A DNA stretch of 41,255 nucleotides, taken from Acidimicrobiales bacterium. GTDB taxonomy: Bacteria > Actinomycetota > Acidimicrobiia > Acidimicrobiales > AC-9. The notes under the pieces were generated by a model. It was not told the DNA's origin, ran no database searches, and saw nothing but the letters and a program-made list of their open reading frames with translations. The stretch covers positions 1-41,255 of the forward strand of contig DASXCO010000109.1 of NCBI GenBank assembly GCA_036491125.1. Reading direction: 5' to 3'. Positions 31,412-33,483 of this stretch are shown piece after piece. Both the position numbers and the translations under genes were made by a program. Positions within the stretch are counted from its first letter, which is position 1, and every line of letters starts with the position of its first letter.

Positions 31412-32179
31412 TCAGGTCTCCTCGCGGTGGCGCTCGAGCCATCCGAGCAGGACGGCGACGGCCCGCGGATCGTGGCGGAGACGGTGACCCGCGCCGCTGA
31501 GCACGCGCAGCTCCCCTCGCCCATCGGCGGCGTCGTCGAGGGCGCGCGCCTCCACCACGGGCACGACCGCGTCGTCCCCGCCGTGCACGATCAGCAGCGG
31601 CCGGGGCGGCACCTTCCCCACCAGGGCGAGGGGCCGGAGCTCGTCGAGCTCTCGGGCCCAGGCCGCCGGGTCGTCGGGAAAGCCGGCGCTGCGCACCACC
31701 CCGAGGTCACCGGCCTCGGCCAAGAGGCGATCGGGAGCAGCGGCCCACTGCGAGAAGTCGGCGGGAGCCGCCAGGGCGGCGACGCCTCGGACCCGCTCGT
31801 CCTCGCCCGCCCCGCACAGGGCGAGCGAACCGCCCGTGCTGAACCCGGCCAGCCACACGCCGCTGATCTGGGGCAGACCGAGGGCGTGGTCGACCGCGGC
31901 CCTGAGGTCGTCCATCCAGCCACCGAGGGAGAAGTCGCCCTCTGACTCCCCTGTCCCCCGGAAGTTGAACGTCAGGACGGCCCACCCGGCCTCCGCGGCC
32001 AAGCGGTCCGCGAGCTGGGGGTAGGTGTGGGCGGCGCCCGCCGCTCCCTTCGGGGCGGCGGGAAAGCCGTGGCACAGGATCACCAGCCCGCAGGAGCGAC
32101 CCGGCTCGAGGTCGGGTCGCACCAGATACCCACGCAGCGTGATCCCACCGCTGCGTATGTCCACCTGCACCAGTCGCAC
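31412..32179 (-). CDS. Alpha/beta-hydrolase (dienelactone hydrolase/esterase-like)
   Basis: A 255-residue hydrolase with the nucleophile S114 in GFSTGG, the oxyanion region LCHGFPAAP, the acid in VHGGDDAVVP and H in GAGHRLRHDP, a complete triad. The early FNFRGTGESEGDF is typical of this family of small esterases and acylpeptidase-like hydrolases. GTG at 32179 is used; a GTG at 32170, 6 bases after TAGGTG, would be a leaderless alternative. It is convergent with thiE (3 bases between stops). Substrate unknown. Confidence 0.87.
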   Translation of the reverse strand: MRLVQVDIRSGGITLRGYLVRPDLEPGRSCGLVILCHGFPAAPKGAAGAAHTYPQLADRLAAEAGWAVLTFNFRGTGESEGDFSLGGWMDDLRAAVDHALGLPQISGVWLAGFSTGGSLALCGAGEDERVRGVAALAAPADFSQWAAAPDRLLAEAGDLGVVRSAGFPDDPAAWARELDELRPLALVGKVPPRPLLIVHGGDDAVVPVVEARALDDAADGRGELRVLSGAGHRLRHDPRAVAVLLGWLERHREET

Positions 32180-32248
32180 CTACCCCTGGCAATCATGAGC
32201 CAACCTGGCCCGGCTCCACCCCCTGCCCGGACAGCAGCCCGGACATGG

Positions 32249-32278
32249 GTCCGGGGGGCGCCGAAGCGCCCCCCGGAC
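32249..32278 (-). terminator. Strong GC hairpin ending the small-peptide unit
   Basis: GTCCGGGGGGCGC (32249-32261) and GCGCCCCCCGGAC (32266-32278) pair perfectly over 13 bp with a 4-base loop (CGAA on plus, TTCG on minus). It lies about 30 bases after the second stop of the small reading frame. There is no T-tract, but GC-rich stems without one are common terminators in actinobacteria. It is the strongest hairpin noticed in the window. Confidence 0.75.
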
Positions 32279-32308
32279 AAATCTTGCTGGAAAGGACCCG
32301 ACGAGGAC

Positions 32309-32444
32309 CTATGGCATCGAGTGGGACCGGCTCCCGACCGCCTCGCCGAGCGGTGTCTGGTTGAGATTCACCAGGTGGTCCAGCAGCCGCCTAACGGCCA
32401 GCCACCTCCAGGGTCCCGAGACTTGGACTGTTCAGTTGGACCAC
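32309..32444 (-). CDS. Putative small protein requiring a +1 shift at a TAG codon
   Basis: A minus-strand AAAGGAGG (32444-32451), almost perfectly complementary to the 16S rRNA tail, is followed in frame by GTG or CTG and 17 codons (MVQLNSPSLGTLEVAGR) ending at TAG 32391-32393. A +1 shift there, reading AGG from 32392, opens 27 codons of protein-like sequence (RRLLDHLVNLNQTPLGEA and on to SRSHSMP) up to TAG 32309-32311. GGAGGTGG lies 6 bases before the CGT-TAG slip point, resembling the SD-assisted shift of prfB. The start, the shift and expression are all inferred; two separate peptides by reinitiation, or a leader peptide, are alternatives. I do not recognise the peptide. Confidence 0.45.
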
Positions 32445-32466
32445 CTCCTTTCTCTGGTGCCAACAG

Positions 32467-32472
32467 GCTATA
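32467..32472 (-). promoter_or_regulatory. -10 box (TATAGC) of the small-peptide unit
   Basis: TATAGC lies 15 bases before AAAGGAGG, predicting a transcript start near 32460 and a very short leader. No good -35 is visible. The rest of 32473-32528 shows no feature. Confidence 0.45.
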
Positions 32473-32528
32473 CGGACGGACGCGCACCGCGAGGGCATTT
32501 CCGGGCCGTCATTTCGCTCGACCCGGTC

Positions 32529-33003: not shown

Positions 33004-33474
33004 TCAACGAGGCTCCGGCGGGTCCTCGCCGACGGCCCCGATGGACTCCAGGTAGTTCATCTGAGCGGCCAGGACGGCGTGCACCTGGGCGGGTGTGTAG
33101 GACGTGCCCACCGCGCCGGCCCGCTCCAGTACGTAGTCGACCGTCTCGGCGCCAGCCACCACGATCGGTGCTTCCACGCTGGCCGAGTGGCCGTTGCCGG
33201 AGGTGGTCCGCGAGCGGAAATACTCGAGGTTCCAGCCGATGATCTGTCGCACGTCCTGCTGGCTCAGGCGCTCGCTGACCTCGAACGGCAGGTGACGCGT
33301 CACCCAGGACGCCACCACATCCTGATCGACCGCCCGCCGCGGTGCGTGGCGCCCCTCTGCATGTCCGCGCGGTCGGGGCCGCCGCCGCTCGGTCTGCCGG
33401 GTGACGGTGGCCGCCGTCGCCACCAGCGCCGCCACGAGCACCGCCGCCACGATCACCAGCACGACAGTGACCAT
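33004..33474 (-). CDS. Membrane-anchored protein of unknown function
   Basis: A 156-residue protein with one N-terminal membrane helix (MVTVVLVIVAAVLVAALVA), a basic linker (RRRPRPRGH) and a soluble domain of about 100 residues: VDQDVVASWVTRHLPFEVS, DVRQIIGWNLEYF and a C-terminal AQVHAVLAAQMNYLESIGAV. I do not recognise the domain. The ATG at 33474 follows TAACCT by 9 bases, as in metH; a GTG at 33480 would be only 3 bases from that box and is rejected. Confidence 0.8.
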   Translation of the reverse strand: MVTVVLVIVAAVLVAALVATAATVTRQTERRRPRPRGHAEGRHAPRRAVDQDVVASWVTRHLPFEVSERLSQQDVRQIIGWNLEYFRSRTTSGNGHSASVEAPIVVAGAETVDYVLERAGAVGTSYTPAQVHAVLAAQMNYLESIGAVGEDPPEPR

Positions 33475-33483
33475 GACCACGCG

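Follow-up and report, generated by a model that had tools for sequence, protein, structure and literature searches.

Layout of the locus

The window (i.e., the whole stretch of 41,255 nucleotides that was analysed, from an Acidimicrobiales bacterium) features, on its minus strand, a gap of about 350 bases between flanking open reading frames (ORFs; 32180-32528), bordered by the gene of a DUF1707 protein on one side and by an alpha/beta hydrolase gene on the other side, in agreement with the gap described in an earlier note on this DNA. This gap contains a stretch encoding a small structured RNA found across much of Actinomycetota (32459-32285, minus strand), followed by a terminator-like hairpin (32278-32249), and the folding of the stretch beats that of shuffled sequences (z = -3.07). 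The earlier note had described a self-contained unit with a TATAGC box, an exceptionally strong Shine-Dalgarno (SD) site, a 17-codon frame and a 13-bp perfect hairpin. The box (32472-32467), the SD (AGAAAGGAGGTGGTCC, 32453-32438), a 17-codon frame leading from a GTG within the SD to a TAG (32393-32391) and the hairpin (32278-32249) are indeed all present on the minus strand, and the very strong SD, the short translated frame and the terminator are supported by what follows. Regarding the frame itself, the end at the TAG stands, while the likely start is the CTG at 32435 (14 codons) and not the GTG inside the SD. The features of the locus, all on the minus strand, are:

32465-32472 (-): probable -10 promoter element TATAGCCT; similar box at a like distance in relatives
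32438-32453 (-): SD1, AGAAAGGAGGTGGTCC; complementary to the 16S 3' end over 17 bases when the following A is included, with one G-U pair
32391-32435 (-): mini-ORF, CTG start, 14 codons (LNSPSLGTLEVAGR) and TAG; start-to-stop frame in 254/254 distinct homologs
32403-32409 (-): SD2, GGAGGTG within the ORF (sequence); GAGGTG in nearly all covariance-model homologs, locus L108 (GAGGCG) being the exception
32447-32452 (-): P1 5' strand, GAAAGG; weaker outside the class
32290-32295 (-): P1 3' strand, CCTTTC; fold of the RNA stretch and of relatives
32437-32446 (-): P2 5' strand, SD1 paired; 96.5% of cells paired in alignment A1
32373-32382 (-): P2 3' strand, TGGACCACCT, mimic of the anti-SD; alignments of homologs
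32412-32417 (-): P3 pseudoknot 5' strand, GGGACC, within the ORF; 93.7% paired with double changes
32323-32328 (-): P3 pseudoknot 3' strand, GGTCCC, in the P5 loop; alignments of homologs
32398-32406 (-): P4 5' strand, GGTGGCTGG, covering the last codons of the ORF; the part of the ORF that covaries most strongly across the family
32352-32360 (-): P4 3' strand, CCAGACACC; alignments of homologs
32387-32397 (-): P2a hairpin, stop codon in the loop; alignments of homologs
32316-32338 (-): P5 hairpin (GTCGGG / CTCGAT); alignments of homologs
32297-32350 (-): P6 stem (CTCGG / TCGGG), enclosing P5; alignments of homologs
32249-32278 (-): terminator-like hairpin, 13 bp, without a T run (sequence); hairpin at the equivalent place in relatives

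Judging from the position of the -10-like box, the transcript is expected to start around 32460; no match to the sigma-70 consensus was found at the promoter region of the RNA. ARAGORN detected neither tRNA nor tmRNA in the window. Within about 20 bases behind the 13-bp hairpin, more GTCCGGGC repeats are observable (32218-32278), and an upstream ORF of 158 amino acids without Pfam match (33004-33480, minus strand) is kept beside the RNA in many relatives of the order.

Family, distribution and neighbourhood

The best Rfam match of the stretch is RF02471 (Ms_IGR-5), over the full-length positions 1-184 (32.6 bits, E = 4e-6). As this score is below the gathering cut-off of 45 bits, so that a search at the gathering threshold returns no match and RF02471 emerges only when searching by E-value, the window copy does not qualify for membership under the Rfam rule and is classified here as a divergent relative. 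Homology is nevertheless linked through intermediates: RF02471 finds genomes of this order and, in reverse, a model (R1) that we built from 20 relatives finds loci scoring above the RF02471 cut-off. Ms_IGR-5 is reportedly an sRNA first found in Mycobacterium smegmatis; Rfam lists it as sRNA, and no function was found for it in openly searchable papers. In addition to the full-length homology, both share the same order of elements (SD, short frame, P4, P5/P6) and, as a rule, a single copy per genome, whereas the copies of Acidimicrobiia differ by burying the SD in P1/P2 and those of the window's order by starting mostly with CTG.

Searches of related genomes reveal that the RNA is widely kept along with its SD, frame and stop. 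Model R1 has matches in 82 of the 149 class genomes and 81 of the 298 phylum genomes searched, usually once per genome, while RF02471 matches 38 of 149 phylum genomes (14 above cut-off) and none of 14 control genomes. With blastn, a homolog emerges in about 40 of the 59 genomes searched within the order, most with E<1e-10, and these genomes nearly all represent separate families. Matches with a taxon name belong to Acidimicrobiia, Actinomycetes and Thermoleophilia. The RNA is not universal, being either absent or overlooked in many genomes of the phylum, and no match was found in many of the reduced genomes of the order. Plasmids gave only short chance matches, and no viral contig matched the strict pattern. 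Two loci (L167 and L196) sit on contigs labelled as Acidobacteria, which are probably mis-binned or mislabelled actinobacterial sequences, and a second match in genome G301 (L162), devoid of the motif, looks like a false positive.

Neighbour genes are stable within a class and different between classes: an acyl-CoA dehydrogenase and an alpha/beta hydrolase in the window's group, genes that (by eye from the sequences) we take to be Fur, YgfZ and a nitrobindin-like protein in several Actinomycetes, and presumably, again by eye, gyrA and an HNH gene in Thermoleophilia. The RNA is followed by a gene on the opposite strand in 63 of 106 loci. Since the neighbours are class-specific and often convergent, the RNA would not be a leader; judged from this comparison of neighbourhoods, it is a standalone unit. 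In S. avermitilis, an sRNA transcription unit with mapped ends matches MS_IGR-5 and is a separate unit (PMC8780764), RNA-seq confirms MS_IGR-5 in S. lividans (PMC8079986), and a transcript map of M. smegmatis puts ncMSMEG15794c, a separate small transcript, on IGR-5 (PMC10454040). Moreover, protected Ribo-seq reads cover the MS_IGR-5 homologs of M. abscessus and M. smegmatis, even though the same authors warn that many non-coding RNAs also give footprints (PMC4974804).

Pairing with 16S rRNA, fold and mini-ORF

Read in relatives of the same order, the 16S 3' end is ..GGCTGGATCACCTCCTTTCT, and the window RNA is complementary to 17 of its bases, counting one G-U pair. Among the 254 homologs, a set partly selected for the SD, 251 show 15-16 contiguous pairs with 16S. 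The predicted SD1-16S duplex reaches -29.4 kcal/mol, against -8.7 for GGAGG alone, and the predicted cost of freeing SD1 from the RNA's own fold is about 12.9 kcal/mol. In the 3.8-Mb genome, AGAAAGGAGGTGRTCC has a single exact match, the runner-up having two mismatches. The fallback idea of the earlier note, a regulatory RNA engaging the anti-SD, is thus far supported by the comparison. The second site, SD2, lies 8 nt ahead of the last sense codon, which is also the distance between the GGAGG of SD1 and the start, so that a terminating ribosome could be held there. Locus L108, in which GAGGCG stands for GAGGTG and the P4 3' strand has changed accordingly (..TATCGCC), keeps P4 but loses GAGGTG, hence a parking role of SD2 would not be essential.

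The fold is a seven-helix structure with two pseudoknots, in which 91.7% of cells are paired across 20 relatives, versus at most 51% when partners are slid. In an alignment of 84 homologs from several classes, 373 double changes are counted where shuffles predict 106, none of 500 shuffles scoring as high. Most of this covariation is carried by P4, P5 and P6, whose counts are favoured because these helices were part of the model that made the alignment, but P3, which was absent from the search model, is still 93.7% paired with double changes. P2, the helix that buries the SD, is about 90% paired in the same 84-homolog alignment, with changes that are almost only one-sided owing to an SD strand that hardly varies. 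Unlike P3 and P4, the helix proposed in Rfam, in which the SD pairs with the segment that follows, lacks covariation. Altogether, covariation supports a pseudoknotted fold that buries the SD. Outside the class, P1, P3 and the P2 partner are not found throughout, and in the clade including L143 and L149 the core consists of the SD, the short frame, P4 and a terminator.

A frame of 10-17 codons, starting 5-13 nt past the SD and ending at a fixed place, is present in 254 of 254 distinct homologs, a union of two overlapping sets of related sequences in which trials are not independent; among several possible starts, we retained the one whose distance to the SD was closest to 9 nt. Set 1 corresponds to 145 distinct homologs from model or blastn searches and leaves out L108 (same frame, GAGGCG) and the likely false positive L162, both devoid of the anchor motif. 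In this set, 143 of 145 homologs have ATG, GTG, TTG, CTG, ATT or ATC 5-13 nt past the SD and in frame with the stop, the remaining two having ACG and ATA, while the other two frames pass in 8 of 290 trials; the stop offset is identical in 138 homologs and one base earlier in seven. Set 2 was chosen by a pattern silent on start and stop: the stop is in place in 120/120 homologs and one of the six start codons in 118/120 (ACG in the other two), versus 5/240 off frame. Overall, starts are TTG (85), ATG (80), CTG (36), GTG (23), ATC (18), ATT (8), ACG (2) and ATA (2), with 68% of non-AUG codons and 26% for CTG, ATT, ATC, ATA and ACG together, and stops are TAG (194), TGA (44) and TAA (16). The frame persists in the face of varying loop lengths, shifted starts and exchanged start and stop codons, though part of its conservation amounts to RNA conservation, as it overlaps the P4 5' strand.

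Regarding the encoded peptide, the comparison of synonymous and nonsynonymous changes suggested in the earlier note detects no selection in this upstream frame. Over 63 near-neighbour pairs, changes between the start and P3 are spread evenly (70/71/67 on codon positions 1/2/3), and the pN/pS of about 0.7 does not differ significantly from 1 (P = 0.13). Furthermore, seven loci (L143, L149, L150, L154, L158, L160 and L161) read GGAGGTGGC or GGAGGTGAC in another frame, yielding for example ..GGGSS* instead of ..EVAGR*, with start, stop, P4 and ORF intact, which implies that the apparent E-V motif is the GAGGTG of the RNA. Taken together, the even changes and this clade indicate that evolution appears to keep the translation of the tiny frame and its end point, not its peptide. 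In the same clade, the terminator stands directly behind the P4 3' strand.

Beyond the stop, the 27-codon +1 frame pointed out in the earlier note does exist past the TAG, but there is nothing special about it: past the stop, the 252 homologs compared have frames of 27 codons or more 164 times in +1 versus 171 and 199 times in the other two frames. Indels of 1 and 2 nt accumulate freely downstream of the stop, the distance from the stop to the P5 loop being distributed 8/6/5 modulo 3 in 19 relatives, whereas the upstream frame is kept in every homolog. The CGT-TAG of the window usually corresponds to CGC-TAG, CGC-TGA or CGC-TAA, and CGT, CGC, AGC, TGC and other codons are found before TAG, TGA or TAA. 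The internal GGAGGTGG ahead of CGT-TAG is present, but its end lies at 5 bases from it instead of the 6 previously given.

Possible modes of action

The interpretation that we favour, with about an even chance of being right, is a standalone sRNA of about 200 nt, a divergent relative of Ms_IGR-5, with a fold operated by a ribosome on a decoy ORF. In the unoccupied RNA, P1/P2 would bury the SD, while P3 and P4 would sequester the body of the mini-ORF. A 30S subunit would capture the exceptionally long SD, then the ribosome would translate 10-17 codons, opening P2, P3 and P4 in turn, and stop at the fixed codon just behind the P4 5' strand, where SD2 may hold it briefly. The peptide would be a by-product, only the translation of the stretch and its end point being kept. 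We infer that the passage of the ribosome switches the RNA between two states, and that either the exposed 3' half or the ribosome held on the RNA acts in trans. The strands of the SD, P3 and P4 are those that an initiating or elongating ribosome must open. Against this interpretation, P1, P3 and the P2 partner are not universal beyond the class, many genomes of the phylum lack the RNA or at least a detected copy of it, part of the ORF conservation is due to the overlapping P4 5' strand, Ribo-seq footprints are common on non-coding RNAs (PMC4974804), and CTG is an inefficient start in a mycobacterial reporter with a consensus SD, in which ATT worked, ATC hardly and CTG not (0.03%; PMC4633059).

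Ms_IGR-5 would thereby become a testable machine with a buried super-SD, a peptide-independent frame, a fixed stop and two pseudoknots opened by the ribosome, and the idea is directly testable because relatives exist in two groups amenable to routine genetics and Ribo-seq, the mycobacteria and the streptomycetes. While the family is already known, its architecture and the evidence of an sRNA keeping a translated frame without its peptide seem new: among the openly searchable papers, we found none describing them. More tentatively, and with a clearly smaller likelihood than the switch itself, the RNA might sense translation in trans throughout the phylum, its opened, anti-SD-like 3' half or the held ribosome reporting capacity. 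If so, ribosome or initiation capacity would be reported to other genes, whatever the decoy peptide.

A somewhat unlikely alternative to the ribosome-operated switch is that the RNA simply holds 30S subunits or ribosomes through its 17-base complementarity to 16S, aided by slow non-AUG initiation and pausing at SD2, without any switching of the 3' half. The uniqueness of the SD in the genome, the duplex of -29.4 kcal/mol, the prevalence of non-AUG starts (68%, of which CTG, ATT, ATC, ATA and ACG make up 26% of all starts) and the equal spacing of SD1 and SD2 all fit this view, but it would need an abundant RNA and leaves unexplained both the burial of the SD and the covariation of P3-P6 downstream of the ORF. 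Structured RNAs engaging the ribosome or RNA polymerase include tmRNA and 6S/Ms1 RNA, from which the window RNA differs in having no tRNA-like domain (ARAGORN) and no Rfam match to them.

We regard as improbable a dual-function sRNA that would pair with mRNAs via the anti-SD-like P2 3' strand or other segments and encode a mini-peptide with a job of its own. The RNA is a standalone sRNA carrying its own ORF, some of the P2 3' strands, for instance GGACCACCTCC or GGATCACCTCC, look like the 16S tail, and the start and stop are conserved (254/254), but the peptide is devoid of detectable constraint (pN/pS about 0.7, P = 0.13) and in one clade the same RNA segment gives an unrelated peptide. SgrS and SR1 are likewise small RNAs with their own translated short frame, but their peptide acts (PMC11133741), whereas that of the window RNA appears unselected.

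Still less probable is a purely structured non-coding RNA, in which paired segments and a U-rich loop would give rise to the frame as a by-product. The coincidence of the conserved codons with P3 and P4 and the unconstrained peptide would agree with it, but not a frame found in 254/254 homologs, against 8/290 and 5/240 in other frames, and kept in spite of altered loop length, start position, and start and stop identity.

Leader-peptide attenuators, such as those of whiB7 and the cysteine uORFs, rely on a ribosome on a short frame to alter the pairing of the downstream RNA. Our proposed mechanism resembles them in placing a ribosome on a short frame, but the window RNA has no controlled gene in cis. 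It is very doubtful that the RNA serves the downstream alpha/beta hydrolase gene (31412-32179) as a leader or attenuator whose controlled element would be the terminator: this gene does lie downstream on the same strand in many relatives within the order, but a same-strand gene is not conserved in this position, the neighbours being unrelated and often convergent (63/106) in other classes, no alternative pairing with the terminator was seen, and the S. avermitilis transcript is a separate unit (PMC8780764).

Finally, the programmed +1 frameshift at CGT-TAG proposed in the earlier note (about 44 residues), or a reinitiation in the second frame, is almost certainly wrong, for although an internal GGAGGTGG precedes the stop and a 27-codon +1 frame follows it, this frame is broken by indels and no longer than the others, and the slip codons are not conserved. 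A prfB-type mechanism was rejected in the same way: the SD-like sequence just ahead of the stop is common to both, but the window RNA lacks both the conserved coding frame after the stop and the conserved slip codon.

The weak starts of the mini-ORF may be tolerated thanks to the much longer SD, or else weak initiation may itself belong to the mechanism. The frequency of CTG, ATT, ATC and even ACG starts is unusual for bacteria and may serve studies of start-codon selection. At three loci (L190, L250 and L032), an ACG lies at the start position, in frame and 8 nt past the GGAGG, and is a possible start codon.
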